A stretch of 27,771 nucleotides of DNA, from IMG/VR virus record IMGVR_UViG_3300032284_001070, positions 1-27,771 of that record, one strand, 5' to 3'. A program made the position numbers and the translations under genes. How positions within the stretch are numbered: the stretch's first letter is position 1; every line of letters starts with the position of its first letter. The DNA is from a virus. This document shows, in pieces, positions 457 through 21,787 of the stretch. A model generated the notes under the pieces. That model was not told the DNA's origin. It saw nothing but the letters and a program-made list of their open reading frames with translations, and did no database searches.

Positions 457-1251
457 ATGAAAATAGTCAATGATCAATTCTGGAGAGGGTTTCGAGATGC
501 ATTTACGTCTGCGGAACCATTTGATCATGTGGTGATCGATAATTTCTTTACAAACGAAACGGTAGCGCAACTGGTAGCAGAGTTTCCGGCCTACGATGCA
601 GAAGGAGTATGGAATGCCCACTACAACAATCCGATCGAAAACAAAAAAGCCTGTAACCACTGGGACAAGTTCCCAAGAAACACTTACTCGGCTCTACACT
701 ACCTGTGCGGAACAGCATTTGAACACGCGGTTGAAGCAATCACAGGCAATACAGGCATACAAGCAGACGTCGGACTCCACGGGGGAGGATGGCATGCCCA
801 TACCACCAACGGAAAGTTGAATGTACATGTTGACTACAACATACATCCCAAGCTACAATTACAGCGTCACTACAATTTGATTGTTTATATCACTCCAGAC
901 TGGAATCCTGAATGGGGCGGTGGACTAGAGTTGTGGTCACATGATACAGAAACAGGTGGACCTAAGGAATTGGTAAAGCTGGTAGAAAACCGTTTTAATC
1001 GTGCGGTGTTGTTTGATACCACACAGAACTCATGGCACGGCTTGCCTGCTGATCTAAATTGCCCCGAAGGTATAGTCAGACAGAGCCTGGCAGTTTACTA
1101 TGTTACACCACCTGAACAGAACACAGACCCCAGAGGTAAAGCACTATTTGCTCCATATCGAGATCAAGCAAACGATCCAGACATTCTAGAGTTAATAAAA
1201 AAACGCAGTCAAGTGCAAACTGCTGATCAAGTATATAAAGGACTAAAATGA
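457..1251 (+). CDS. 2-oxoglutarate/Fe(II)-dependent oxygenase
   Basis: A 264-aa protein with the 2OG-Fe(II) oxygenase signature in order: an HxD motif (His124-Val-Asp126), a WGGGLELW strand typical of prolyl-4-hydroxylase-like double-stranded beta-helix folds, a distal iron-binding His (about residue 194, in SWHGLP) and the 2OG-binding Arg (about residue 208, before QSLAVYY). The family couples oxidative decarboxylation of 2-oxoglutarate to hydroxylation of a protein, sugar or small-molecule substrate. T4-like marine phages often carry such genes, usually with unknown substrate. Its stop overlaps the next ATG by 4 nt. Placement at the head of a glycan cassette suggests a sugar or sugar-modified protein as substrate, which is inference. 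Confidence 0.88.
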   Translation: MKIVNDQFWRGFRDAFTSAEPFDHVVIDNFFTNETVAQLVAEFPAYDAEGVWNAHYNNPIENKKACNHWDKFPRNTYSALHYLCGTAFEHAVEAITGNTGIQADVGLHGGGWHAHTTNGKLNVHVDYNIHPKLQLQRHYNLIVYITPDWNPEWGGGLELWSHDTETGGPKELVKLVENRFNRAVLFDTTQNSWHGLPADLNCPEGIVRQSLAVYYVTPPEQNTDPRGKALFAPYRDQANDPDILELIKKRSQVQTADQVYKGLK

Positions 1252-1979
1252 AAATCAAAGTATTTGTACACCTTAACGATATGCCCGGAGCATTCGAACT
1301 AATGAGTGAACAGCTCACAAGAGCAAGCGAATCAGGCCTGCTGGATGCGGCTGACGAAGTATTTCTTTGTACCAACGGCAATGAAGCAAATTTTGCTGGT
1401 GCCAAAGAAGTAATGGCCGAGTTTGAAAATGTTAAGTTTGTTCATACCAGCAATGATTATGCCAGTTATGAATACCCAACTCTGGATTTCATGAAGAAGA
1501 CCTGCGATGCGGCAGATAATGATTTCTATATCTGCTATTTCCATCTCAAGGGCCTGACCAAGCGTACAGATCCTAATGTAATGGACTGGCGTGATTACAT
1601 GGAATACTGGACCATTGATCGTTGGGAAGACAATGTTGACGAGCTCAACCGTGGAGTTGATACAGTGGGTTGCAACTATATTGAAAGCCCATGGCCGCAC
1701 TATTCGGGTAACTTTTGGTGGAGTCGTGCAGACTATATCAAGAAACTAGATCCTCTAACAAACCCACGCAATATTGAATGGGGCAAGCCAAGCCGTTACA
1801 TTGATGCCAATCTTGATGGTGGCAACTTCCGTTATGAGCACGAGGCCTGGATTGGTAGCAAGAATCCTGTGTGGGCAGAATTGCACAGCACACCAGGTAA
1901 AGAAACACCCGGTTGGCACTTTAAGAATTTGTATCCTAAGGAAAACTATGTCACTGAAACCAGCAACGCTGAAGATTGA
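1248..1979 (+). CDS. Glycosyltransferase-like protein
   Basis: A 243-aa soluble protein starting at an ATG that overlaps the previous stop (ATGA). The short N-terminal beta-strand (IKVFVHLND), the central HLKG motif (about residues 101-104) and the NFWWSR.DYI motif (about residues 157-166) resemble uncharacterised bacterial and phage proteins found in polysaccharide clusters that have a nucleotide-diphospho-sugar-transferase-like fold. No complete DxD metal site stands out, so catalytic class is uncertain. It overlaps the following GT9-like gene by 32 nt. A role in assembling a surface or virion glycan is inferred from this resemblance and the neighbours. Confidence 0.6.
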   Translation: MKIKVFVHLNDMPGAFELMSEQLTRASESGLLDAADEVFLCTNGNEANFAGAKEVMAEFENVKFVHTSNDYASYEYPTLDFMKKTCDAADNDFYICYFHLKGLTKRTDPNVMDWRDYMEYWTIDRWEDNVDELNRGVDTVGCNYIESPWPHYSGNFWWSRADYIKKLDPLTNPRNIEWGKPSRYIDANLDGGNFRYEHEAWIGSKNPVWAELHSTPGKETPGWHFKNLYPKENYVTETSNAED

Positions 1980-2883
1980 TAAACCCAATCGTATTCTGGT
2001 AGACCGCCGCAAGGCTGTGGGTGATGTTATCATGATCACTCCGGTCCTGCGCGAACTTCGTAAACGCTATGGCTCAGATGCTTTTATTCAGGTGGTAACA
2101 GAAGAAACTATTGTACTGAAAAATAACCCACATATTGATGCTGTGGTTAATCCTTCTGACATGAGGAGAGAGGATCCCTGGGATCTTTATCTCAATTTAA
2201 ATGATGCATACGAATACAACGTTACCAGCCATTATGTTGATGCATATCTGTATCGTGCGTTTGGTACCACAGAGAACATTGACAAGACTCCGGAAGTGTT
2301 TGCAGATGTAGAAGAAGTTGAAAATGTTGCTGATGCTCAAACAGATATCAATGGACCATATGTGGTGTTCCACATGCGTCAATGGGCATGGGAAAATAAA
2401 AATGTAAGTGCAGACACCTGGACCATAATCATGGCCTGGCTAGAAGCAAAACACCCTGATGTGAAGATGATCAGCGTTGGTTCACAGTATGATTTAAAAA
2501 TGCCAATGGATGCAGGGGATCGTTATATTAATCTAAATGATCAGTTGACCATTGGTGAAATCAAGCAATTGATTGCTGGTGCAAAATTCTTTATCGGTGG
2601 AGACAGCGGCCCTTACCATATTGCCACAGCAACAGACACACCCATTGTTGCACTACTGAGCCATTTGAATCCAGACCAGATCCTGCCCTGGCGTGGTGGT
2701 GAGTTTGGTAAAAACTGTTATCCGATCATGAGCAAGGTGCCCTGCACAGGATGCTATGCTAGACAAACTGCACCTGTGCGCAACCTAAACTGTGAGAATG
2801 CAGAACAATGGGTCTGTGCCAAGAGTTTTGATGCATTAGAAATCACAACAGTATTAGATAAAATATTAAAGGAACAAGAATGA
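1948..2883 (+). CDS. GT9 family (ADP-heptose LPS heptosyltransferase-like) glycosyltransferase
   Basis: A 311-aa protein. I start it at ATG 1948 because the frame becomes GT9-like there: RILVDRRKAVGDVIMITPVL matches the N-terminal GxGD-type nucleotide-sugar loop region of heptosyltransferases. The upstream extension of the same frame is antisense-like sequence under the preceding gene. The C-terminal half has FIGGDSGPYHIA (about residues 214-225), the conserved GT9 donor-binding motif, followed by a Cys-rich stretch near residues 265-290. GT9 enzymes transfer ADP-activated heptoses or related sugars to lipopolysaccharide-type acceptors in the cytoplasm. The stop overlaps the next gene by 4 nt (ATGA), indicating translational coupling. 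The sugar and acceptor cannot be deduced. Confidence 0.85.
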   Translation: MSLKPATLKIDKPNRILVDRRKAVGDVIMITPVLRELRKRYGSDAFIQVVTEETIVLKNNPHIDAVVNPSDMRREDPWDLYLNLNDAYEYNVTSHYVDAYLYRAFGTTENIDKTPEVFADVEEVENVADAQTDINGPYVVFHMRQWAWENKNVSADTWTIIMAWLEAKHPDVKMISVGSQYDLKMPMDAGDRYINLNDQLTIGEIKQLIAGAKFFIGGDSGPYHIATATDTPIVALLSHLNPDQILPWRGGEFGKNCYPIMSKVPCTGCYARQTAPVRNLNCENAEQWVCAKSFDALEITTVLDKILKEQE

Positions 2884-4100
2884 GTGACATCACAGGAACT
2901 ACAAAATTAGACTCATGTTTAGCATGCGGAAGTCTAGATATTATTCCTATGTTGAATCTAAACGAACAACCATTGGCCAATGCGTTCAAGGATTCTGCTG
3001 ATCAGGAAGAACCATACTGGCCATTGGCAGTGAACATGTGTACACATTGCCACCACTTGCAACTAACGCATGCAGTGGATCCAGAATTGATCTACAAGAA
3101 CTATCTGTATGTGAGCGGAACCAGCAAAACCTATATTGACTACATGTCTTGGTATGCTCACTTTGTGCGTGAACAGTTTTCGCGCTGGACCAGTAATGTT
3201 CTTGATATTGGATGCAATGATGGTAGCCAACTGGATGCATTTAAAAAGCTAGGATACAAAACCTATGGTGTTGATCCTGCTATCAACCTGTTGAGTTCTA
3301 GTGTGGAAAAAGGACATGATGTGGTATGTGGATTCTGGAACCAAGAGGTGGCAGAAAGTTTTGACATCAGGTTTGATATCATCACCAGCCAGAACGCCTT
3401 TGCACATATTCCTGATCCACTTACGTATTTAGAAACAGTCAAGAGTGTGTTGGCGGATGATGGATTGATGTTTATCAGTACCAGCCAAGCAGACATGATT
3501 CTAAATGATGAGTTTGATACCATATATCATGAACACATCAGTTTCTTCAACGCCAAGAGCATGAGTGCGTTGGCAGAACGTGCAGGACTGTATCTGCGTG
3601 ATGTTGTTAAAACACCAATACACGGAACCAGCTATATCTTTATACTGGGCAAAAAAGAACAACAGCATAGACTGACCAATATTCTGTCCATGGAAACTGC
3701 ATCAGGACTGTACACAGATGAAACCTATGCGGCCTGGGCGGCCAATACACTACGACTCGTAGACGAACTAAAAACCTTTGTGGAACTGTATCGCCGTAAA
3801 GGATACATCCTGGGCGGGTATGGTGCGGCCGCCAAGGGCAATACACTGTTGAACTTCAGCAAGATCAAACTGGACTTTATCGTTGATGACAATGCACTAA
3901 AGCAGAACAAATACAGTCCAGGCATGAGTATTCCGGTGGTGAGCATTGAACATCTGGATCAATACACCAGCAAAGACAAGATCCTGTTTATTCCACTGGC
4001 CTGGAACTTCTTTAGCGAGATCCGCGGAAAGATACAGGCTCGACGCAATAACGACAATGACAAGTTTCTTAAATACTTTCCTAAGGTGGAAATACAATGA
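2880..4100 (+). CDS. Zinc-binding SAM-dependent sugar C-methyltransferase
   Basis: A 406-aa protein with the three-part layout of NDP-sugar C-methyltransferases (TylC3/NovU type). An N-terminal zinc ribbon has C13/C16 and C54/C57. A class I SAM-binding domain carries motif I (VLDIGCNDG, about residues 106-114). The C-terminal Methyltransf_14-type domain has the diagnostic GGYGAAAKGNTLLN motif (about residues 311-324) followed by a VDDN segment. Family members methylate carbon 3 of 4-keto-6-deoxy nucleotide sugars, giving branched deoxysugars. Length is normal for the family. It overlaps both neighbours by 4 nt. Finding this enzyme in a phage implies that an unusual branched sugar is made or altered during infection, which is inference. 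Confidence 0.88.
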   Translation: MSDITGTTKLDSCLACGSLDIIPMLNLNEQPLANAFKDSADQEEPYWPLAVNMCTHCHHLQLTHAVDPELIYKNYLYVSGTSKTYIDYMSWYAHFVREQFSRWTSNVLDIGCNDGSQLDAFKKLGYKTYGVDPAINLLSSSVEKGHDVVCGFWNQEVAESFDIRFDIITSQNAFAHIPDPLTYLETVKSVLADDGLMFISTSQADMILNDEFDTIYHEHISFFNAKSMSALAERAGLYLRDVVKTPIHGTSYIFILGKKEQQHRLTNILSMETASGLYTDETYAAWAANTLRLVDELKTFVELYRRKGYILGGYGAAAKGNTLLNFSKIKLDFIVDDNALKQNKYSPGMSIPVVSIEHLDQYTSKDKILFIPLAWNFFSEIRGKIQARRNNDNDKFLKYFPKVEIQ

Positions 4101-4933
4101 GCTCAATACATGATGTTACGCTGGTAACAATTGAAACACACTATCATGCACTGGCAGGCCGTGCTCTAGAGGAAACAGTAAAACGTATTCCTTTTAGCAA
4201 CGTGGTTACATTCAGTGATGTTCCATTGTTACAAGGTGCAAAAAATGTTCCTGTAAACAAGATTGGTAGCCTGCGTGACTACTGTGAAATCCTGCTCAAG
4301 GGCATGTGGCCGTTTATCAACACCAGCCATGTGATTTTTGCACAGTGGGATGCAATGGTGTTTGACCAGACACGCTGGACCGATGAGTTCTTAGAGTACG
4401 ATTACATTGGTGCAGTTTGGCCCTGGCAACCACCAGGTCAGAATGTGGGCAATGGCGGATTCAGCCTGCGCAGTACCAAGCTACTGGAAGCATTACGTGA
4501 TCCATTTATCCACATGGTTCCTGAAGGTCCGCACGGTGTACAAGAAGACAACTATATTTCCATTGTGCATCGTAACCTGCTGGAACAAAAATATGGAATT
4601 AAATTTGCACCACAGGATGTTGCGGCCAAATTCAGCTATGAACTTGGTCCTTACTCGGGTAGTATGGCCTTCCATGGATTTTGGAATGTGATAAACTTCA
4701 TGCCCGAAGATACTGTGGATTTCTTCTTTGCAAATCGTCCGCCAAACATGTTCAACGAACTGCATCGTGCGCATCATATTATTGTTGCCCTGGGCAACAC
4801 AGACCGAGTAGACCTAGTAGAGTCAGCCGCAGATGAAATCCGATCCGGTAAAGACTATGCCAACCTTTTTGCCTGGTTGTCACAAGACACGTTTGACAAC
4901 AAAACGGCAATATTGGATTTAATTAAAACTTGA
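4097..4933 (+). CDS. DUF5672-like glycan-associated protein
   Basis: A 278-aa protein whose core carries QWDAMV, then a YDYIGAVWPW segment and VGNGGFSLRS (about residues 117-126). This is the pattern of the DUF5672 group, which I know from bacterial and phage glycosyltransferase clusters and which has a glycosyltransferase-A-like look. It starts at an ATG overlapping the methyltransferase stop and is the last gene of the cassette. The next gene follows after 54 nt with its own promoter-like sequence. Molecular activity is not established; a sugar-transfer role is inferred. Confidence 0.7.
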   Translation: MSSIHDVTLVTIETHYHALAGRALEETVKRIPFSNVVTFSDVPLLQGAKNVPVNKIGSLRDYCEILLKGMWPFINTSHVIFAQWDAMVFDQTRWTDEFLEYDYIGAVWPWQPPGQNVGNGGFSLRSTKLLEALRDPFIHMVPEGPHGVQEDNYISIVHRNLLEQKYGIKFAPQDVAAKFSYELGPYSGSMAFHGFWNVINFMPEDTVDFFFANRPPNMFNELHRAHHIIVALGNTDRVDLVESAADEIRSGKDYANLFAWLSQDTFDNKTAILDLIKT

Positions 4934-6299: not shown

Positions 6300-6308
6300 T
6301 GTTATAAT
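6300..6308 (+). promoter_or_regulatory. Extended -10 promoter
   Basis: TGTTATAAT (6300-6308) is a consensus extended -10 (TGnTATAAT) with no good -35 at 16-18 nt. Predicted start is near 6315, giving a leader of about 25 nt that contains the AAGGAG ribosome site of the gene at 6340. Confidence 0.65.
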
Positions 6309-6339
6309 CTAGTTATCGCAACTAGAAAGGAGTAACACC

Positions 6340-6612
6340 ATGTCTAAAGCAACACAAAATTTTACTGCCGAGGATCTCAAGAGTCTCGAGACTGCGGCAG
6401 ACGCAGAACGTGCTAAGGTATTACTTCGTGCTATTGTTGAAAAAGCCAGCACCAGTAAATATCCAATCAAGCCCGAAAAAGTGCAGGCCCTGTACAATAA
6501 CATTGCTAGAGCCCGCAACAAAAACGAAGTGGTTGCCATTGGCTGGAACATGCTGTTAGTGGGCGAAGGGCTTGCTAGCGTGAATAGTAAGTATCAAAAG
6601 CGTTATGCTTGA
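6340..6612 (+). CDS. Unknown small early protein
   Basis: A 90-aa, mostly helical, basic/acidic mixed protein with a strong AAGGAG ribosome site (about 6327-6332). No family recognised. It stands alone as a single-gene unit: an extended -10 promoter lies upstream, and a short GC hairpin (6614-6631) plus the next promoter lie immediately downstream. Strong promoter, strong ribosome site and small size fit a highly expressed early host-interaction protein, which is inference. Confidence 0.75.
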   Translation: MSKATQNFTAEDLKSLETAADAERAKVLLRAIVEKASTSKYPIKPEKVQALYNNIARARNKNEVVAIGWNMLLVGEGLASVNSKYQKRYA

Positions 6613-6613
6613 T

Positions 6614-6662
6614 TGTTGCAAAAAAGCAACAGACAAAACGGTTGACCAGAAATGTCCGTTTT
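6614..6662 (+). repeat. Tandem hairpins overlapping the next promoter
   Basis: TGTTGC (6614-6619) pairs with GCAACA (6626-6631) across an A6 loop. Then AAAACGG (6635-6641) pairs with CCGTTTT (6656-6662), and the 14-nt loop contains the -35 hexamer of the next promoter. The second hairpin ends in four T residues and may act as a terminator for the upstream gene, an operator, or both. A close relative occurs at 6958-6983. Confidence 0.6.
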
Positions 6663-6670
6663 GCTATACT
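6642..6670 (+). promoter_or_regulatory. Strong sigma70 promoter
   Basis: TTGACC (6642-6647), 17-nt spacer, TATACT (6665-6670). Predicted start is near 6677, about 25 nt before the ATG at 6702, with a CGGAG ribosome site in between. Confidence 0.8.
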
Positions 6671-6701
6671 ATAGGCTAAGTTAAACAAAACGGAGCAACA
6701 A

Positions 6702-8135: not shown

Positions 8136-8170
8136 ACCCTACTACCTAACCCGTAGTAGGGTCTTTTTTT
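8136..8170 (+). terminator. Strong rho-independent terminator
   Basis: ACCCTACTAC (8136-8145) and GTAGTAGGGT (8153-8162) form a perfect 10-bp stem with a 7-nt loop, followed by CTTTTTTT (8163-8170). It ends the ATPase transcript. The last two T residues of the tail are also the first two bases of the next promoter's -35. Confidence 0.92.
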
Positions 8171-8197
8171 GACTCCTGCAGTCAGTTCGTGTATAAT
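8169..8197 (+). promoter_or_regulatory. Near-consensus sigma70 promoter, leaderless layout
   Basis: TTGACT (8169-8174), 17-nt spacer, TATAAT (8192-8197). The predicted start falls on the A of ATG 8204, 12 nt after the first base of the -10. No Shine-Dalgarno sequence is present. Confidence 0.85.
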
Positions 8198-8203
8198 TAC
8201 TGT

Positions 8204-9337
8204 ATGAAGACCTTTGAATATGTTGAAGACTACCTAGAGGTAATTGCTGGCAAGCGTCAGCTGGCCAGCGGCCTGCTGTCGCCTATATCATTGTTTGCTA
8301 GTTTTACTCCACTGGTAAACCTAGCACGGTACGATGTCAATTTCTTGGACAATGTAACAGATCAAACCACCAGCGGCAATGCTCTAACGGATAGGCAAGC
8401 TGAACTGGCTATCAAGCTGATACAGAAGTACAAGCGACAGCTACTCACACACAACATTGATATAGATGCAATCGATCCTCCACGGTATCGCAAGTCTCTG
8501 CGTATTCTTGACCGTACGAAAAAGGTAGAGCTGATTGATGGGGCCATACGCATGCGATTTCCTTATGAATCCAAGCTGATTGAATCTATCCGTGACGAAT
8601 CCAAGGAAAGCCAAGGACGCATACACTTTGATCGAGATGTCAAGTTGTGGAAGGTGGCACTCACTGAATACAATTTGAACTGGGCCTGTGAGTTTGCAAG
8701 ACTACACGGTTTCGAAATAGACAAGGCATTACAGGACCATATGGCAAACATTGTTGCATGTGAGCAATCGGAATTTAAAATTGAGCTGGTTCAAACAGAC
8801 AACGGGTTTGCTATCAGCAATGCCTCTGGCAGTTTAGTTGAGTATATCAACGCACACGGCGGCTTTGGGCTGGATAATACCGTGTTTTTAGCTGACATGT
8901 GCTCTGTGCTGGGCTATACCCTATCAGCTGAAGTAGAAGCGTTATTTGCGGAGATATTCACGGCTAGTGATGCACTACTGCTATACAACCGCAGTTACGA
9001 TTTCAATACAGCGCCGGATACCATTGGACGCATAGTGAGCTATGCTCAGCTGACCAATCGTTATCCTATCGTAACCTACAATCCTAATCCAGATGGTTCT
9101 TTGGTAGAGTGGCAACGGCATTTTGCACCCGAGGAAATTTTGGTGGTCAAGAATCAAAAACATAGTGATGTGCAGGTGCTTCCACAGCATAAATTAATAT
9201 ACAGTTCACAGATAATACGAAGCCTAGAACACATTCCTCTACTGGTAAGTCAGATCGGAATGATTGTAGGCTCAAGCAAACAGACCATGGTCACCGTGGC
9301 CGAGAAAATCTTCTACACCCAAATGAAATTAGGTTAG
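8204..9337 (+). CDS. Unknown replication-block protein with HARP-like segment
   Basis: A 377-aa protein. I start at ATG 8204; a GTG at 8189 lies within the promoter and would be upstream of the predicted transcription start. Residues about 107-174 (IRMRFPYESKLIESI, then IHFDRDVKLWKVAL) resemble the HARP domain of SMARCAL1-type annealing helicases: hydrophobic-PY, a helix, then a D..K.W.V strand pair. The remaining sequence is not recognised, although the C-terminal third ends in a hydrophobic IPLLVSQIGMIVGS segment. It lies directly before uvsW. The HARP-like call is by eye and suggests binding of branched or fork DNA; function is otherwise unknown. Confidence 0.7.
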   Translation: MKTFEYVEDYLEVIAGKRQLASGLLSPISLFASFTPLVNLARYDVNFLDNVTDQTTSGNALTDRQAELAIKLIQKYKRQLLTHNIDIDAIDPPRYRKSLRILDRTKKVELIDGAIRMRFPYESKLIESIRDESKESQGRIHFDRDVKLWKVALTEYNLNWACEFARLHGFEIDKALQDHMANIVACEQSEFKIELVQTDNGFAISNASGSLVEYINAHGGFGLDNTVFLADMCSVLGYTLSAEVEALFAEIFTASDALLLYNRSYDFNTAPDTIGRIVSYAQLTNRYPIVTYNPNPDGSLVEWQRHFAPEEILVVKNQKHSDVQVLPQHKLIYSSQIIRSLEHIPLLVSQIGMIVGSSKQTMVTVAEKIFYTQMKLG

Positions 9338-9344
9338 ATGATAT

Positions 9345-9374
9345 TTGCTTTTGTACTATCGTGTGTGTTAATAT
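9345..9374 (+). promoter_or_regulatory. Candidate promoter, leaderless layout
   Basis: TTGCTT (9345-9350), 18-nt spacer, TAATAT (9369-9374); an overlapping TATAAC lies at 9372-9377. The predicted start is at the A of ATG 9381, and there is no ribosome-binding sequence upstream of that ATG. Confidence 0.55.
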
Positions 9375-9380
9375 AACCAC

Positions 9381-10835
9381 ATGTTTGCAACACTAAAAAT
9401 AAAAGACGAAGTTAATGTAAAAATTGAAGGACTTGAATTATCAGATCGAACAGCTCTGGTAAAGAAATACAAGTACGAGATTCCTGGCGCTAGGTATCAG
9501 CCTAGCGTTCGTCTTGGCCGCTGGGATGGCAAGGTAGCCTACTTCCAGCTTGGAGGCACTACCTATATTAATCTGTTGCCGGATATCATTGAATATTTGG
9601 TTAGCCAAGGCTATCAAATAGAACTAGAAGACACTCGTGAGTACAAACGAGATTTCAGCTTCAGTCAAGTCAATGCACACAGTTACAGCCACATCATGTG
9701 GCCCAAAGGTCATCCTAAAGAAGGAGAACCCATGGAACTGCGAGACTATCAACCTGATATCATCAACAGGTTCTTTGACAACCCACAATGTGTACAAGAG
9801 ATCGCAACAGGTGCAGGTAAAACTGTGATCACAGCCGCACTATCAGATGCAGTATCGCAGTATGGTAGGAGCATTGTGATCGTGCCCAACAAGAGCCTGG
9901 TAACACAGACACACAAGGACTACAAGAACATGGGACTTGATGTTGGCGTGTACTTCGGGGACGATAAAGAATACAACCGCCAGCATACTATCTGTACCTG
10001 GCAAAGCCTTAACATACTGCTGAAAAATACTCAAGCTGGAACAGCTGAAGTGACCATTGGTGAGTTTATCGAAGGCGTTGTGGCCATTATTGTAGATGAA
10101 GTACACATGGCCAAAGCAGATGCATTAAAGACTCTGCTCACAGGGGTGTTTGCCCGGATACCTCTACGTTGGGGACTCACTGGAACTATCCCTAAGGATC
10201 CTTATGAGTTCATGGCCATTAGATGTAGTCTAGGCGATACTGTAGGACAACTGAGTGCAAGCGAACTACAGGCCGCAGGACACCTGGCCAACTGTCATGT
10301 TAACGTTATACAGCTACTGGACCATGTGGAGTACAGCAACTATCAGAGTGAACTCAAGTATCTATTAGAAACCACTGGCCGGTTAGACTATATAAGTACT
10401 CTAGTAGAGCGCATTCGAGAGACTGGCAATACCTTGATCTTGGTTGATAGGGTAGCGGCTGGCAAAGCTCTCCAAGAGAGAATTAAAGATGCTGTGTTTG
10501 TATCAGGGTCCACCAAGGCCACCGCGAGACAAGATGAATACGATGACATTGCCATTGCTGATGGCAAGGTTATTATTGCTACTTACGGTGTTGCCGCTGT
10601 GGGCATTAATATTCCTCGCATTTTCAATATGGTTTTACTTGAACCAGGCAAGAGCTTTGTGCGTGTCATACAGTCAATCGGTCGTGGAATACGCAAAGCA
10701 GAAGATAAGGACTTTGTTCAAATCTGGGACATAACCAGCACCTGCAAATTCGCCAAGAGACATCTAACCAAACGCAAACAGTTTTATAAGGAGGCTAACT
10801 ACCCCTTCACAATAGAAAAGGCAGAATGGCAATAA
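9381..10835 (+). CDS. uvsW: UvsW-type SF2 DNA helicase
   Basis: A 484-aa protein of the length and layout of T4 UvsW. An N-terminal DNA-binding domain (residues 1 to about 110) contains the conserved RLGRWDGK segment. The SF2 helicase core has Walker A (ATGAGKT, about residues 142-148), DEVH (about residues 237-240), LTGT motif III and motif VI (QSIGRGIRK, about residues 431-439). In T4, UvsW unwinds R-loops and branched DNA, drives fork regression and helps switch from origin- to recombination-dependent replication. It follows the HARP-like gene and overlaps the next gene by 10 nt. Confidence 0.95.
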   Translation: MFATLKIKDEVNVKIEGLELSDRTALVKKYKYEIPGARYQPSVRLGRWDGKVAYFQLGGTTYINLLPDIIEYLVSQGYQIELEDTREYKRDFSFSQVNAHSYSHIMWPKGHPKEGEPMELRDYQPDIINRFFDNPQCVQEIATGAGKTVITAALSDAVSQYGRSIVIVPNKSLVTQTHKDYKNMGLDVGVYFGDDKEYNRQHTICTWQSLNILLKNTQAGTAEVTIGEFIEGVVAIIVDEVHMAKADALKTLLTGVFARIPLRWGLTGTIPKDPYEFMAIRCSLGDTVGQLSASELQAAGHLANCHVNVIQLLDHVEYSNYQSELKYLLETTGRLDYISTLVERIRETGNTLILVDRVAAGKALQERIKDAVFVSGSTKATARQDEYDDIAIADGKVIIATYGVAAVGINIPRIFNMVLLEPGKSFVRVIQSIGRGIRKAEDKDFVQIWDITSTCKFAKRHLTKRKQFYKEANYPFTIEKAEWQ

Positions 10836-11335
10836 TGAGAATATTAACACTAGACAATGTGGCGTTTGAAATGAACGACATACCAGAAGAAGTAGATGAC
10901 CTAAGGTTCTGTGTATTTGACAACAGCGATCCCAAGGAGCCTGACTACTTTTTTATACCACTGATCTTTCTAGAGAGCTTTAACAGTCCAGCACTGGTAC
11001 TCAAGGTAGGAGACAATACTATAAAGATGCCAGTGGATTGGCAGGTGCTGATTGGAGAACATGATCTAGGGGATCTAGAAGTTGTTCCGCTTACCAGTAT
11101 AAACGATCGTGGGTTCAATGTGTTCTGCTTCAACCCACTGAGCAGTTTTAAACCAGAGTTTCACGGTATTGAAATCGTAGACATATATCAAGACGTTAAA
11201 TGGTATTTTCCCAAACTCAAGCCAGGGCAGATGCTGGCCATCCCATTAACGATTGGTAGCAAACCCATGTGTGCATATTTTATTAAAGATGTATCTCGAC
11301 AGAGCGAGGTAGTAGATTACGGAAAGGCGTGGTAA
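10826..11335 (+). CDS. Unknown conserved phage protein
   Basis: A 169-aa acidic protein starting inside the end of uvsW. ATG 10826 has AAAAGG about 5 nt upstream and is preferred; ATG 10835, which overlaps the uvsW stop, is the alternative. The sequence looks beta-rich, with no membrane segment or recognisable motif. Its overlaps with uvsW and with the cupin gene (TAATG) show it belongs to the replication-block operon. I do not recognise the family. Confidence 0.75.
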   Translation: MAIMRILTLDNVAFEMNDIPEEVDDLRFCVFDNSDPKEPDYFFIPLIFLESFNSPALVLKVGDNTIKMPVDWQVLIGEHDLGDLEVVPLTSINDRGFNVFCFNPLSSFKPEFHGIEIVDIYQDVKWYFPKLKPGQMLAIPLTIGSKPMCAYFIKDVSRQSEVVDYGKAW

Positions 11336-11676
11336 TGGAAAAATTAAACATTCATGACATAGGCGGAGAAGTGGTCAAGGACAACGAGACCTATGTGCTA
11401 AAGGATAACAAGACCTTGAAAAATCTTGTGTTAAGCAGTACACTACTTCGTGTAGGCCAGCAGACTCGCGGACATCGTCATCCAGGGCAGGAGGAAGTCT
11501 ACTTCTTTGTAACCGGACAGGGCAAGATGATTGTTGGTGATGAAACTGATGAGCCTTTTGTTGTACGTGCAGGAGATGTGGTACTGATTCCGGATGGAGT
11601 ATTCCACCGGGTGATTAATGATGGAGATTTTAACATGCTGTTCAATTGTGTTTTTGACGGAAAGCGTAATCACTGA
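11335..11676 (+). CDS. Single-domain cupin protein
   Basis: A 113-aa protein with both cupin motifs: GHRHPGQEEVYFFVTGQG (G-x-H-x-H-x4-E-x6-G, about residues 44-61) and GDVVLIPDGVFHRVIN (about residues 80-95), giving the expected metal ligands His-His-Glu-His. Small cupins act as sugar isomerases or epimerases, dioxygenases or binding proteins. Start at ATG 11335, overlapping the previous TAA, with GGAAAGG about 8 nt upstream. A sugar-related role linked to the glycan cassette is possible but unproven, because the gene sits within the replication operon. Confidence 0.88.
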   Translation: MEKLNIHDIGGEVVKDNETYVLKDNKTLKNLVLSSTLLRVGQQTRGHRHPGQEEVYFFVTGQGKMIVGDETDEPFVVRAGDVVLIPDGVFHRVINDGDFNMLFNCVFDGKRNH

Positions 11677-11939
11677 TGGGAACTCTTAAACCGGGTGCAA
11701 CCTACATCTATGAAAACGCAGGTGGTATAACATACCAGCGTGAGTTTGGTGCAGACCCTAGCACCCGAAAAGAAATAGGATACACATACGACCCACGCAC
11801 AGATGATGGGCGTCCACTGAGAGATCATCTCGAAGATGCCAAGATGTGGGGAGAGATACGCCGTATGGCGCGGACAAATCCCACATTGCAAGATGCACTA
11901 GAACGTGCTATAGTTATATACACCCTGAGTAAAGAGTAA
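11676..11939 (+). CDS. Unknown conserved small phage protein
   Basis: An 87-aa protein with TGATG and TAATG junctions to both neighbours, so it is translationally coupled. The N-terminal half (GATYIYENAGGITYQREFG) is followed by a helical C-terminus. I recall similar small proteins in T4-like cyanophages but no function. Its position just before gp62 places it in the DNA-replication operon. Confidence 0.75.
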   Translation: MGTLKPGATYIYENAGGITYQREFGADPSTRKEIGYTYDPRTDDGRPLRDHLEDAKMWGEIRRMARTNPTLQDALERAIVIYTLSKE

Positions 11940-12445
11940 TGGCAACCAAACCCAAAGCACCTGTTGATTACAATTCTAAGCTATACATTGGCAATGAATT
12001 GGCCGCACTGGACCGCAAGGACCGCGGCTATTACGACAGCATGACCACGGAAGAACAAAAGAAGTTTAGTCCGTTTCTCATGATACGCTGGGGTAGTAGT
12101 GTAGAAGCAGGTTCGCCGGATGAGAGATTGGTGCAAGCATACTATGTGCAGTCAACAAATGAATACCTGAACAAGTATTTCTTTTCATTGAGCAAGCATC
12201 CAAAGTTGCAGTGGCTACTGGCAACAACCATTAGTCCAAATGCAAAGACCAGACGCCATACCTGGATAGCAAACAAAAAACGTGAAGGCTCAGACAATAA
12301 GTTGAACAAGTTTTTGCGTGAAATTTATCCTCATCTGAAGGAAGACGAAATTGAGTTACTCCGAAGCATCAATGATAAAAGAGATCTTAAACAGTTGGCA
12401 AGGGACCACGGCTGGGATGACACAAGAATCAAAGAGTACTTTTAA
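11939..12445 (+). CDS. Clamp loader small subunit, gp62-like
   Basis: A 168-aa protein whose layout matches marine T4-like gp62 (clamp loader A subunit). It has a short N-terminal segment, then FSPFLMIRWGS, a helical YVQSTNEYLNKYFFSLSKHP region, a basic patch at TRRHTWIANKKREG, and a C-terminal ending of the type IELLRSINDKRDLKQLARDHGWDD. In T4, gp62 and gp44 form the 1:4 clamp loader that opens gp45 and places it on primer-template DNA. Neither gp44 nor gp45 is in the window. Similarity is judged from recalled family patterns rather than an alignment. Overlaps the next gene by 29 nt. Confidence 0.75.
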   Translation: MATKPKAPVDYNSKLYIGNELAALDRKDRGYYDSMTTEEQKKFSPFLMIRWGSSVEAGSPDERLVQAYYVQSTNEYLNKYFFSLSKHPKLQWLLATTISPNAKTRRHTWIANKKREGSDNKLNKFLREIYPHLKEDEIELLRSINDKRDLKQLARDHGWDDTRIKEYF

Positions 12446-13118
12446 ATGTCGGTACTGCGAAAAAGAATTCCGCAAGGAAACAACTCTTGTGGCACATCTC
12501 TGCGAACAAAAGCGCCGTTGGCAACAGGAAAAAGAAACAGGAGTGCAATGGGGACTACAAAGCTATTTGCAGTTCTATGAAACAACACAAGGAAGCGCCA
12601 AGCTAAAAAGTTATGAAGATTTTGTCACTAGCCCTTATTATAATTCTTTCGTTCGCTACGGCAGATATTGTGTATCTGTACGGGCTATCAATCGCCGCAG
12701 TTATTGTGAGTGGCTCTTAAAGAACAACAAGAAACTGGATCACTGGTGCAAGGATTCCTACTACGAAGAATGGTTGCTGGAATACCTGCGCAGGGAAAGT
12801 GTACAGGATGCACTGGAACGTGGACTAAAGGAAATGACAGACTATGCAGAAGCTCATCCAGAACTCAAGAACGGTTATGTCGATTACTTTCGGTACGGTA
12901 ATAGCAATCGTATCGTACACCATATATCAACAGGACGCATTAGTGCTTGGGTTGTTTATAATTGTGATACAGGAGTTGAGTTTCTTGACAAACTCATGGA
13001 AGACCAAATCTCGATCGTGATGCCCTACATTGATCCAGACCATTGGCATCGTAAATTAAAAGACTACATGGCTGATGCCGAGTGGTGCAAGATGATCCTC
13101 AAGGAAGCAGGCCTATGA
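12417..13118 (+). CDS. Zinc-finger protein of unknown function
   Basis: A 233-aa protein starting at ATG 12417 within the end of the gp62-like gene; the frame is open upstream, but that part lies antiparallel to nothing conserved and deep inside gp62. It carries a CxxC...HxC finger (Cys11, Cys14, His27, Cys29: KCRYCEKEF...VAHLC) followed by a long basic helix and a Tyr/Trp-rich body. Zinc fingers of this kind bind nucleic acid or protein. In T4 the gene after gp62 is regA, a translational repressor, but this product does not resemble RegA. It is coupled to the next gene by ATGA. Confidence 0.75.
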   Translation: MTQESKSTFKCRYCEKEFRKETTLVAHLCEQKRRWQQEKETGVQWGLQSYLQFYETTQGSAKLKSYEDFVTSPYYNSFVRYGRYCVSVRAINRRSYCEWLLKNNKKLDHWCKDSYYEEWLLEYLRRESVQDALERGLKEMTDYAEAHPELKNGYVDYFRYGNSNRIVHHISTGRISAWVVYNCDTGVEFLDKLMEDQISIVMPYIDPDHWHRKLKDYMADAEWCKMILKEAGL

Positions 13119-13708
13119 AATTTAAATCAGACATTGATATCGACTTTGGAGATCGTACTCAGATACTCAAAGCAATCAAGCACACACCTGCAAGCATACA
13201 GCGTGATGGTGCATTGATACAGCACAACACAGGAGTGTATGTTACGCCAATTCCAGTGGACCCAGAAAAGGGCATAGCCAGCATTGATCACGAAAGCGCA
13301 GACGAGCGTGGGTACATTAAATTGGACCTGCTGAATGTTAACCTGTATCAGAGTGTGCGCAATGAAGCACACCTGACTGTCCTGATGCAAACAGAGCCTG
13401 CATGGGACTTGTTCAACGCAGAACAGGCCTTCTTTGAGGAGTTAATACATGTAAAGGGTCACTGGAATCTGCTCAAGCGTATGCCGGAGCCTGTGGACAG
13501 TATTCCTAGGCTAGCAATGTTTTTAAGTGTTATACGCCCTGCAAAAAGACATTTGGCAGGAAAAACCTGGGCGGAAGTTGCCACAGAAGTTTGGAAAAAG
13601 CCAGAAGACAATTCCTACTACTTTAAGAAAAGTCACGCGATTGCGTATGCAAATCTAGTGGTAGTGAACATGAACCTGTTAGCCGAGCTTGCGTACCAGG
13701 GTAATTGA
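13115..13708 (+). CDS. Miniature DNA polymerase III alpha (DnaE)-like protein
   Basis: A 197-aa protein starting at ATG 13115 (ATGA overlap). Four blocks line up in order with bacterial DnaE. DIDIDFGDR (residues 6-14) matches the PDFDVDF catalytic strand. IQHNTGVYVTPIPV (residues 35-48) matches the HAGGVVIAP segment. YIKLDLLNV (residues 67-75) matches VKFDFLGL, whose Asp is the third catalytic residue. YYFKKSHAIAYA near the C-terminus matches FNKSHSAAYA. The PHP, fingers, beta-binding and OB regions are absent, against about 1160 residues in E. coli DnaE. It may be an active small polymerase-like protein, a decoy or a structural derivative; the sequence cannot tell. Confidence 0.7.
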   Translation: MKFKSDIDIDFGDRTQILKAIKHTPASIQRDGALIQHNTGVYVTPIPVDPEKGIASIDHESADERGYIKLDLLNVNLYQSVRNEAHLTVLMQTEPAWDLFNAEQAFFEELIHVKGHWNLLKRMPEPVDSIPRLAMFLSVIRPAKRHLAGKTWAEVATEVWKKPEDNSYYFKKSHAIAYANLVVVNMNLLAELAYQGN

Positions 13709-14080
13709 TCGTCTTTTACTTTTCTTGGCCGCGATTTCTTTAAGACTTACCAGTGGGCCAAATTTGATTTCTACATCTCTGCTGTTGAGAGTTTTTAAAC
13801 TGTATCTGAAAGGTGACCAGTCTGTGCGTAAAAATACATTTATAGGAATCAATCTATTGGATTCCCACCACCAATTTTCTCCTAGTGCTAGGAATAGTTT
13901 TTTCTCGTCGTCTGTTCGGAGCGCGGCAAAGTCGTAGACGCTGGTAATCACATCATCAACATTTTGGATGATGCCAATATACTCGTTACCACCATAGCCA
14001 ATGTAGCTGATGAAAGGATAGTTTTCTAATAATTGCCGATAGTATTCACTTAATTCGGGCTTCGGGGATTTTGTACTCAT
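13679..14080 (-). CDS. Unknown late protein, only minus-strand gene
   Basis: A 133-aa protein read from ATG at 14080-14078 to TAA at 13681-13679. The product has aromatic-rich segments (ISYIGYGGNEYIGIIQ, ENWWWESNRLIPIN) and a basic C-terminus; no family is recognised, though I recall similar proteins in T4-like cyanophages. A perfect TATAAATA late box lies just upstream on this strand. It runs convergently against the DnaE-like gene and overlaps it by 30 bp. A competing plus-strand frame (13689-13937) lacks a ribosome site and recognisable product, so I prefer this one. Confidence 0.7.
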   Translation of the reverse strand: MSTKSPKPELSEYYRQLLENYPFISYIGYGGNEYIGIIQNVDDVITSVYDFAALRTDDEKKLFLALGENWWWESNRLIPINVFLRTDWSPFRYSLKTLNSRDVEIKFGPLVSLKEIAAKKSKRRSITLVRKLG

Positions 14081-14086
14081 CAGTTC

Positions 14087-14094
14087 TATTTATA
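14087..14094 (-). promoter_or_regulatory. T4-type late promoter TATAAATA, leaderless layout
   Basis: TATAAATA reads 14094 to 14087 on the minus strand, an exact T4 late consensus. With the usual spacing, transcription would start at or next to ATG 14080, which has no ribosome-binding sequence. Confidence 0.8.
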
Positions 14095-14108
14095 GATTTC
14101 GAATCCGA

Positions 14109-14137
14109 TTGATTTACTTTTGAAAAGCCTGTATACT
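14109..14137 (+). promoter_or_regulatory. Sigma70 promoter, leaderless layout
   Basis: TTGATT (14109-14114), 17-nt spacer, TATACT (14132-14137). The predicted start is about 14144, the second of two consecutive ATG codons (14141 and 14144). No Shine-Dalgarno sequence is present. Confidence 0.75.
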
Positions 14138-14140
14138 CTA

Positions 14141-15172
14141 ATGATGTTTGACATAGTACAACAAGAAGTTTTAGCACTACTGCCTGCTAAACAAAAACAC
14201 ACGAACAAGTGGATCAGCTTCAATGCTCCTTGTTGTACGCATCGTGGTGAGACACAGGACCGTCGAGGCCGCGGAGGTGTTGCACCAAATGCAGATGGTA
14301 GTATCAGCTATCACTGTTTCAATTGCCATTTCAAAACCAACTACAGACCCGGGCGAGCGATAGGATACAAGTTCAAGCAACTGTTAGAATGGCTTGGCGC
14401 CAGTGACCGAACCATACAGCGACTGAGCATCGAAGCCCTTCGCATACGTGATCTAATTGCTCCGCCCGAAGTAGTAGAAAAGAAAATACAGGAAATACGT
14501 TTTGAGCCAAGGCCCTTGCCCGAGGGTGTGGTCAGTTTAAGCGAGTTCCGCGAACTGCTGGTTAATGCAGATGAAGAAATAGAAATTCCTGAGGAACTGG
14601 CACGTGGACTAGAGTATCTGTCAGAACGTAGGATAAACCTGGATAAGTACGAGTTCTACTTTACTGATGATACTGCACACAAGATGAACAAACGGATTAT
14701 TATTCCGTTTATCTGGAAGCAGGATATCATAGGATACACCAGTAGGACCTGGGACGAGAATGTCAAGCCCAAGTACTTTAACAGCCATGAACCAAACTTT
14801 GTATTCAATACAAACATGCAAACACCTGATCGTAAGTTTGTTATTGTGGTTGAAGGCCCATTTGATGCCATGGCAATAGATGGTGTTGCTATACTGGGCA
14901 ATGAGATCAGTGAAGAGCAAGTGGACATAATAGACAGCCTCAAGCGTGAGGTTATTGTAGTACCAGACTGGGACAAGCCAGGGCAATCCATGATTGATGC
15001 GGCGCTGGAATACGGATGGAGTGTGAGCTTTCCTGTATGGCGTGAAGAATACAAAGACGTTGCGAGTGCGGTAGAAAAACTAGGACGATTATTTGTGCTC
15101 AAAAGTATACTTGAAGCCAAGCAATCGAATGGATTAAAGATTGAGCTACTGCGGAAAAAAATATATAATTGA
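14141..15172 (+). CDS. DNA primase, gp61-like
   Basis: About 343 aa. An N-terminal zinc-binding domain has CCTH (residues 31-34) and CFNC (residues 59-62). A TOPRIM domain has VVEGPFDAM (about residues 235-243, with the catalytic Glu) and VVPDWDKPG (about residues 272-280, the DxD). This is the layout of T4 gp61 primase, which makes pentaribonucleotide primers and works with gp41 helicase. Start is ATG 14141 or 14144; a TTG at 14120 lies inside the promoter and is rejected. The helicase gene follows directly, as expected for a primosome pair. Confidence 0.92.
   Translation: MMFDIVQQEVLALLPAKQKHTNKWISFNAPCCTHRGETQDRRGRGGVAPNADGSISYHCFNCHFKTNYRPGRAIGYKFKQLLEWLGASDRTIQRLSIEALRIRDLIAPPEVVEKKIQEIRFEPRPLPEGVVSLSEFRELLVNADEEIEIPEELARGLEYLSERRINLDKYEFYFTDDTAHKMNKRIIIPFIWKQDIIGYTSRTWDENVKPKYFNSHEPNFVFNTNMQTPDRKFVIVVEGPFDAMAIDGVAILGNEISEEQVDIIDSLKREVIVVPDWDKPGQSMIDAALEYGWSVSFPVWREEYKDVASAVEKLGRLFVLKSILEAKQSNGLKIELLRKKIYN
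15141..15169 (+). promoter_or_regulatory. Sigma70 promoter, leaderless layout
   Basis: TTGAGC (15141-15146), 17-nt spacer, TATAAT (15164-15169), all within the last codons of the primase gene. The predicted start is 15175-15176, on the ATG of the helicase gene. No ribosome site is visible, only an A-rich stretch. Confidence 0.75.
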
Positions 15173-15174
15173 TT

Positions 15175-16593
15175 ATGACAAAAGACTATAACGTAGATTT
15201 TCAAAAACTATTTCTTGAGATGATGTTGCATGATGCACAGAGTTTTGTGCGTGTGCAGAACATATACAATGAGGAGAACTTTGATCGGAGTCTACGATCG
15301 GCCGCAAAGTTCATCAAAGAGCACAGCGAGAAACACAAGACATTGCCTACCCTGGATCAAGTACGAGCAGTGGCAGGCGTGGATCTTAAACCCATGCCGG
15401 ACATGGGCGAAGGACACACAGACTGGTTCATGGAGGAGTTTGAAGGTTTTACCCGACGCAAAGAACTTGAACGTGCTATTCTTAAAAGTGCAGACCTGAT
15501 CGAAAAGGGCGACTACAATCCTGTAGAGAAACTGATCAAGGATGCGGTACAGATATCGCTAACCAAGGATCTAGGCACAGACTACTTTGGAGATCCTCGA
15601 ACCAGGTTAGAAAAGTATTTTAACTCGGGTGGACAGATGAGCACTGGCTGGCCGCAGATGGACAGGATCTTGTTTGGCGGCATGAGCCGAGGCGAGTGGA
15701 ATGTGTTTGCAGGCGGCTCTGGATCGGGTAAATCCTTGGTCATGATGAACCTGGGTTTGAACTGGGTACAGGCAGGGCTCAGTGGCGTATACGTCACACT
15801 AGAATTGAGCGAAGAATTAACTGCGCTTAGAACGGATGCAATGCTTACCAGCATGAGCACAAAAGATATCCGACGTGACATGGATACCACAGAGCTCAAG
15901 GTTAAAATGGTAGGCAAAAAATCAGGATCCTATCAGGTCAAGGGTTTGCCTGCACAGAGCAATATCAACGACATACGCAGTTTCTTAAAAGAATATCAGA
16001 TACAAACAGGCCGCAAAGTGGATTTTATAATGGTCGACTATCTGGATCTGTTGATGCCTGTGAGTGCTAAGGTAAGTCCAAATGATCTGTTTGTTAAAGA
16101 CAAGTATGTATCAGAAGAACTGCGTAATCTGGCCAAAGAAGAACAGATATTTTTGGTAACAGCATCACAGTTGAATCGTAGTGCAGTGGACGAAGTAGAA
16201 TTTGATCACTCACATATTTCAGGTGGTATCAGTAAAATTAACACAGCAGATAATGTGTTTGGTATTTTTACAAGCCGTGCCATGCGTGAACGTGGACGCT
16301 ATCAAATACAGTGTATGAAAAGCCGTAGCTCAACAGGTGTTGGGCAGAAAATTGATCTGGATTATAATGTTGAAACCATGCGTATCACTGACTCGGGCGA
16401 AGATGCTAGCAGTAATCATCAAGACTCCAACAGCATCATGAGCCAGATCAAAGCATCAACTAATGCATCGCCAAAGGTAGCCCCAACTAGTGTAGATGCA
16501 GAAACCGGTGAAATCTCATCTACACCCAAAGCAAACGTGCAAGGAAACAGGTTAAAAAGCATGCTAGCGGATATCAAGAACAAGGATCTCTAA
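15175..16593 (+). CDS. Replicative DNA helicase, gp41/DnaB-type
   Basis: A 472-aa protein of the T4 gp41 length and layout: a helical N-terminal domain, then a RecA-like core with FAGGSGSGKS (Walker A, about residues 178-187), YVTLELS, a Walker-B strand FIMVDYLDLL (about residues 284-293) and a TASQLNR motif, followed by a flexible polar tail of about 70 residues. Gp41 is the hexameric 5'-3' helicase of the T4 replisome and the partner of gp61. I start at ATG 15175; a TTG six bases earlier is possible but overlaps the -10. The stop overlaps a 16-codon ATG frame (TAATG). Confidence 0.93.
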   Translation: MTKDYNVDFQKLFLEMMLHDAQSFVRVQNIYNEENFDRSLRSAAKFIKEHSEKHKTLPTLDQVRAVAGVDLKPMPDMGEGHTDWFMEEFEGFTRRKELERAILKSADLIEKGDYNPVEKLIKDAVQISLTKDLGTDYFGDPRTRLEKYFNSGGQMSTGWPQMDRILFGGMSRGEWNVFAGGSGSGKSLVMMNLGLNWVQAGLSGVYVTLELSEELTALRTDAMLTSMSTKDIRRDMDTTELKVKMVGKKSGSYQVKGLPAQSNINDIRSFLKEYQIQTGRKVDFIMVDYLDLLMPVSAKVSPNDLFVKDKYVSEELRNLAKEEQIFLVTASQLNRSAVDEVEFDHSHISGGISKINTADNVFGIFTSRAMRERGRYQIQCMKSRSSTGVGQKIDLDYNVETMRITDSGEDASSNHQDSNSIMSQIKASTNASPKVAPTSVDAETGEISSTPKANVQGNRLKSMLADIKNKDL

Positions 16594-21758: not shown

Positions 21759-21787
21759 GTGGCCATACAATCAGGATAAGTAATTGT

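Follow-up and report, generated by a model that had tools for sequence, protein, structure and literature searches.

Bacterial leaderless genes of the TA-led type carry a TANNNT -10 box approximately 12 base pairs (bp) before the start codon and have no Shine-Dalgarno (SD) sequence (Zheng et al. 2011, PMC3160421). The leaderless mRNAs known from proteobacteria and from the phages that infect them are usually viewed as isolated cases, such as the lambda cI mRNA. The paper on phage AR9 states that phage transcripts are often leaderless, yet the leaders of AR9 itself are 26–491 nucleotides (nt) long. Here, we analyzed a viral DNA stretch of 27,771 bases (IMG/VR virus record IMGVR_UViG_3300032284_001070; G+C 43–47%), referred to as the window, in which a first-pass annotation had noticed five genes with promoters placed for leaderless mRNA. 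Among annotated phages, jumbo phages have the helicases closest to that of the window, for instance Pseudomonas phage PA5oct with 49% identity; identity to the Phosso protein is equally 49%, and the position of PA5oct in the tree is unsure. We conclude that a jumbo-phage group related to PA5oct very probably uses selected leaderless promoters, at the gene starting at 8204, at the UvsW and primase genes and, less certainly, at the helicase gene, together with the late-promoter gene 14080. The genes and promoters concerned are the following:

8169–8197, + strand: sigma70 promoter TTGACT-17-TATAAT (TTGACT at 8169, TATAAT at 8192–8197; sequence and orthologues), expected 5' end A8204
8204–9337, + strand: gene 8204, 377 amino acids (aa), with a C-terminal RecA-like helicase lobe in a predicted model
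9345–9374, + strand: weak sigma70 promoter TTGCTT (9345)-18-TAATAT (9369–9374), 6 nt before ATG 9381
9381–10835, + strand: UvsW-like superfamily 2 (SF2) helicase (PHROG 16, E 3e-72)
13679–14080, - strand: late-type gene, divergent from the primase gene (PHROG 11637, E 8.5e-34)
14087–14094, - strand: T4-type late promoter octamer TATAAATA, 6 nt before ATG 14080
14109–14137, + strand: sigma70 promoter TTGATT (14109)-17-TATACT (14132–14137), 6 nt before ATG 14144
14144–15172, + strand: DNA primase, T4 gp61-like, with a second in-frame ATG at 14141 (PHROG 47, E 2e-39)
15141–15169, + strand: promoter TTGAGC (15141)-17-TATAAT (15164–15169), inside the 3' end of the primase gene
15175–16593, + strand: DnaB-like replicative helicase, T4 gp41-like (PHROG 19, E 1.5e-63)

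When counted from the first base of the -10 or late box to the start codon, the distances were 12, 12, 12, 11, and 14 nt at 8204, 9381, 14144, 15175, and 14080, respectively, as the first-pass annotation had reported. The first four values agree with the box position of TA-led genes and are conserved in relatives, and the gap between the -10 hexamer and the ATG is 5–6 nt at the sigma70 boxes of the window. RNA polymerase usually initiates approximately 7 nt past the -10 hexamer, and the first transcribed base should therefore be the A of the ATG or its neighbour. The reported absence of SD sequences was also borne out: none of the five starts has one with at least four matches, whereas clear SD sequences are present at 6340, 6702, 7039, 21288, and 24408. 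Two leadered promoters of the window illustrate the contrast:

6303–6332, + strand: promoter with TATAAT at 6303–6308 and SD sequence AAAGGAG at 6326–6332, before gene 6340
6642–6695, + strand: promoter TTGACC-17-TATACT with SD sequence CGGAG, before gene 6702

According to the mechanism that we propose, host-type sigma70 promoters would be set so that transcription begins on the A of the start codon at gene 8204, UvsW, the primase and, less certainly, the helicase, and the resulting mRNAs would begin with 5'-AUG and lack an SD sequence. Gene 14080 would be placed likewise, behind a T4-type late promoter. The 5'-terminal AUG could then be recognised by the 70S ribosome, or by the 30S subunit with IF2 and fMet-tRNA, and this route might confer some advantage.

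Within the window, 3 of 30 gene starts scored at least 9 bits as a promoter at the leaderless distance, compared with 0.47% of all ATGs (binomial p = 4e-4), a result that is suggestive, the sample being small. Promoter-like sites as such were not in excess, the region having 16 where shuffled sequence predicts 14.5. This number, the tight packing of the genes on one strand and the leadered promoters of some UvsW relatives would all suit an alternative in which most expression of the genes comes from longer transcripts of upstream promoters, the boxes being weak or idle and protein S1 acting with AT-rich, unstructured mRNA at the SD-less starts. The unusual feature is the distance to the start codon, and its real significance comes from the relatives.

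The comparison set was composed of 80 IMG/VR loci retrieved with the helicase, 80 retrieved with UvsW and the window, giving 159 sequences (1.73 Mb) after removal of duplicates. The first-pass annotation had proposed a scan of related genomes for a conserved spacing between the -10 box and the ATG, and a sharp peak at 5–7 nt was found: among long open reading frames, 37, 109, and 51 ATGs were located 5, 6, and 7 nt after sigma70-like promoters, respectively, against approximately 15 per position elsewhere. None of six composition-matched decoy motif pairs produced a 5–7 nt peak in the 159 sequences. The genes under the peak were the primase (52), gene 8204 (47), the helicase (27), UvsW (11), the 11939 family (11), the 10835 family (8), and smaller sets. 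When one orthologue was counted per distinct upstream region (those less than 80% identical being retained), the leaderless geometry was present in 36/43 orthologues of gene 8204, 43/49 of the primase, 15/62 of UvsW, 13/39 of the helicase, and 12/57 of gene 10835; for gene 8204 and the primase it extended to proteins with as little as 33–40% identity. The AAA gene 7039, the upstream neighbour, provided a built-in contrast, with the geometry in 0/30 distinct orthologues and an SD sequence of at least five matches in 29 of them.

In 100 upstream regions chosen by -10 position alone, TTG was found at a spacing of exactly 17 nt in 82, in agreement with the host sigma70 pattern of a TTGACA-like -35 located 17 ± 1 nt from the -10 box. 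Start-codon use and SD matches are both consistent with leaderless initiation. The start codon was ATG in 117 of 119 leaderless-type genes (GTG in the other two), compared with 105 of the 131 remaining orthologues of the same genes (p = 3e-6); in Escherichia coli, start codons other than AUG work poorly in leaderless mRNA. SD sequences of at least four matches were rarer in the leaderless-type group (14/119 versus 56/131, p = 5e-8), and a pyrimidine immediately preceded the ATG in 76/119, as expected for a start site. If the boxes were idle, no correlation with the use of ATG or the loss of SD sequences would be expected. Nor does the upstream-transcript alternative agree with a spacing fixed at 5–7 nt among relatives of 35–50% identity, with a -35 at 17 nt in 82% of cases, with the strong terminator that isolates gene 8204 from the upstream genes, or with the opposite orientation of the gene preceding the primase; we find it quite improbable. 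Another possibility is that transcription does start at these ATGs, the true protein starts being further downstream and the leaders short. The start assignment is computational, which gives this proposal some room, but the N-termini align from residue 1 among relatives with the ATG at a constant distance from the box, and none of the sequences inspected displayed an SD sequence at an in-frame start further on, making it highly unlikely. The description of these transcripts as deliberately leaderless in the first-pass annotation is well supported by the conserved spacing, the near-exclusive use of AUG, the loss of SD sequences and the conserved 17-nt spacing of the -35 element.

The promoter of gene 8204 is directly fused to a terminator:

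8136–8169, + strand: intrinsic terminator with a 10-bp stem and 7 T (from a scan; fold -14.7 kcal/mol, z -4.1)

The -35 element of gene 8204 begins at the final T of the terminator's T-run, and this fusion is common to 20 of 36 distinct orthologues. Since the terminator precedes the gene, read-through is probably small and the leaderless promoter is probably the main source of its mRNA. The ATG start is conserved down to 33–40% protein identity. Gene 8204 had no Pfam family and no significant sequence match in PDB. In the structure model (predicted local distance difference test score, pLDDT, 89.9), residues 262–377 matched SF2 helicase lobes with Z of approximately 10 over 110–116 residues, and the protein may be a degenerate relative of the adjoining UvsW helicase. 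The fold gives a C-terminal helicase lobe only, and the label 'HARP-like' was neither confirmed nor excluded.

At the primase, the geometry persists down to 38% aa identity. The primase start and the start of gene 14080 are separated by 64 nt, and the late promoter points the opposite way. The late box of gene 14080 is kept in the closest relatives (loci L002, L003, L084, and L085) and variable further out; the late-gene claim for 14080 holds among the closest relatives only. At the UvsW gene, whose product matches UvsW_N weakly (23.1 bits, below the cut-off of 25.3), the orthologues without the leaderless geometry are mostly leadered, many having TATAAT 20–28 nt upstream and a TTG or GTG start.

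At the level of sequence, selected leaderless promoters are strongly supported for gene 8204 and the primase and well supported for UvsW within the subclade of the window; for the helicase and gene 14080 the evidence is moderate. The arrangement appears to be selected gene by gene. It is strongest at gene 8204 and the primase, has been both gained and lost at UvsW and the helicase, and occurs at some late genes. The first-pass annotation had described the group as the replication genes plus one late gene. The members named in it stand, but the limit does not, as orthologues of 10835, 11939, the exonuclease 25050 and others, and several late genes also display the geometry, while leaders are present at neighbouring genes, 7039 among them, and at many UvsW orthologues. 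Relatives that keep the gene and lack the -10 box, which the same annotation had regarded as evidence against its proposal, were found in part for UvsW (often leadered, with a TTG or GTG start) and for the helicase (box-less genes often having an SD sequence and TTG); the primase and gene 8204 did not show this pattern.

Several points weigh against the conclusion that these genes are leaderless by selection. The p values of the orthologue comparisons ignore relatedness, and many of the loci are related. ATG was preferred in both groups where several starts were possible, and the ATG bias is therefore maybe partly built in. Because the loci were fetched via two of the genes in question, the counts overstate the leaderless share of a genome. 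Taken singly, the promoter at 9381 is weak (approximately 7 bits, TAATAT, spacer of 18 nt), and 14 of the 119 leaderless-type starts retain at least four SD matches. Five longer environmental contigs (449 kb) searched with strict promoters contained only 13 ATGs at 5–7 nt, against 4.1 expected (p = 3e-4). A genome-wide excess at 5–7 nt was absent from PA5oct, as well as from SCTP-2, Munch, Phosso, Atu_ph07, XaC1, and Vibrio phage 2.275.O; the genome-wide peak therefore belongs to the environmental group, and PA5oct and SCTP-2 contribute single genes only. Finally, the ATG of the helicase is 2 nt past the primase stop codon, and coupled translation could serve its start.

Because of this last point, the leaderless case for the helicase is likely but not secure. 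Its translation could be coupled to that of the primase (TGA 2 nt before the ATG), the TATAAT being merely the conserved C-terminal Tyr-Asn codons of the primase. The TATAAT indeed encodes the last two residues of the primase, Tyr-Asn, and the -35 element sits in conserved Ile-Glu-Leu codons. Many relatives are without the box, and among their helicases a TTG start, preceded by an AAGGA motif in the last part of the primase gene, is frequent. However, in primases ending in Tyr-Asn the codons were TAT AAT in 12 of 12 cases, even though these genes use TAC for 37% and AAC for 51% of the corresponding codons; TATAAT was retained where the C-terminus is longer (IYNKL, LYNKL); and the starts after the box were ATG in 13/13. 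On this evidence, we regard coupling as a tentative but real possibility for the helicase.

The late promoters provide a second class of candidate leaderless genes. In the relatives, the exact octamer TATAAATA preceded an ATG at 5–8 nt in 27 pairs and at 9–14 nt in none, consistent with a T4-type late promoter upstream of late genes and, in the window, with the exact octamer at gene 14080. The leaderless late pairs include gene 14080 in its closest relatives, and the most consistent are orthologues of gene 21788, which has a degenerate box in the window:

21775–21782, + strand: degenerate late box GATAAGTA, 5 nt before ATG 21788, a candidate leaderless late gene

Relatives of 21788 carry the exact octamer where the window copy is degenerate, and in 15 distinct orthologues with a similar box the start was 2–8 nt after the box in 13, seven of these at 5 nt. 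A T-run also precedes the late box of 21788 orthologues, similar to the terminator fusion of gene 8204. Other late-type genes of the same genomes (21288, 16637) have a spacing of 20–40 nt and an SD sequence, so early and late promoters would each be used in leaderless and leadered form within one genome. The exonuclease gene 25050 offers a direct example of switching between forms: it is leadered with a TTG start in the window, and leaderless-type with an ATG in L028, L029, L052, and PA5oct. Several leaderless-type genes in L187–L194 (G001) share a recurrent early promoter, roughly TTGACCAATAAAGATCAAAATGCTATAAT, in which the spacer is conserved, which suggests a phage-specific element within the spacer.

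A homologous primase-helicase block with unchanged gene order is present in PA5oct, SCTP-2, Phosso, Atu_ph07, XaC1, and the 121Q/Munch group. For the cultured phages, the sequence upstream of the primase was judged by eye, not by the scoring script. The PA5oct primase is preceded by TTGACA-17-TATAAT-GTGCGC-GTG (GTG 6 nt after the box), the PA5oct exonuclease by TATAAT-7-ATG, and the SCTP-2 primase by TTGACA-16-TAGCAT-6-ATG; a structural gene of PA5oct has TATAAATA-CGTGT before its ATG. The annotated GTG of the PA5oct primase (L162:10953) abuts the -10 box, and leaderless initiation is likely at the next in-frame GTG, 6 nt further along; the annotated start is probably 6 nt too early. Gene callers that favour SD sequences may misplace starts, and this annotation may be an example.

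In 12 cultured phages, the primase geometry was compared with the presence of a phage gene for IF3. The ten IF3-bearing phages were all without the geometry, and in most of them the primase -10 box is further upstream and an SD sequence is present, whereas the two phages lacking IF3 (PA5oct and SCTP-2) both have the geometry. IF3 was not found in the 50 longest environmental contigs, which are fragments. In E. coli, raised IF3 levels inhibit the translation of leaderless model mRNAs (PMC9031893). In the helicase and primase trees, one or two changes suffice for the IF3/leaderless pattern. We treat the association between a missing phage IF3 and leaderless primases as a lead, the only one bearing on the suggestion of the first-pass annotation that these mRNAs might be translated by a different route during takeover of host translation, and do not claim IF3 as the cause of the geometry, there being only one or two evolutionary events and the environmental contigs being fragmentary. 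It is conceivable, although doubtful, that leaderless expression of the core replication genes is linked to control of initiation by the phage itself, that IF3-carrying lineages moved their replication genes to SD leaders and that IF3-less ones (the environmental group, PA5oct, SCTP-2) run them leaderless, perhaps for 70S initiation while SD-led translation is redirected.

Genes for bS21 were present in 6 of the 50 environmental contigs (G001, G002, G004, G008, G009, and G010) and in PA5oct. As a class marker bS21 failed to separate the phages: of five IF3-bearing phages checked for it, three carry it too. In G008 (L329:7434–7670), as in PA5oct, bS21 has Hsp20- and ClpS-like neighbours and no IF3 gene, whereas in Vibrio phage 2.275.O the IF3 and bS21 genes are adjacent. 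Upstream of the replication region of the window (457–4933), open reading frames with overlapping starts resemble glycosyltransferase, methyltransferase, and 2-oxoglutarate-oxygenase types by eye.

If the proposed arrangement is correct, orthologous replication genes that are leaderless beside SD-led neighbours constitute a natural experiment on why genes become leaderless. As PA5oct is a cultured phage of Pseudomonas aeruginosa, the idea is testable at once. A literature search whose coverage left out most subscription papers found no description of jumbo-phage replication genes as leaderless.

Compared with known systems, the genes described here resemble TA-led genes in box distance and in the absence of an SD sequence, the same signature that was used to call leaderless genes in that study (PMC3160421). 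Unlike the TA-led genes, which are from bacterial chromosomes, they are found in phages, are few, are conserved by orthologue, and have a parallel class with a late phage promoter. The proposed initiation at a 5'-terminal AUG free of an SD sequence is like that of the lambda cI mRNA (mechanism reviewed in PMC9031893), but cI is the single repressor gene of a temperate phage, whereas the genes concerned here are several, serve replication or are of the late class, and belong to jumbo phages of the T4 superfamily. The octamer TATAAATA is identical to that of T4 late promoters, and its position relative to the expected start site is as in T4; the difference is that several start codons here are at or beside the expected transcription start. 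Within the jumbo phages, the primases of PA5oct and SCTP-2 are of the leaderless type like that of the window, and those of the ten IF3-bearing phages differ. Leaderless genes and their TANNNT signature were known (PMC3160421), and what appears to be new is an orthologue-conserved and gene-selective leaderless expression in jumbo phages that involves two promoter classes.

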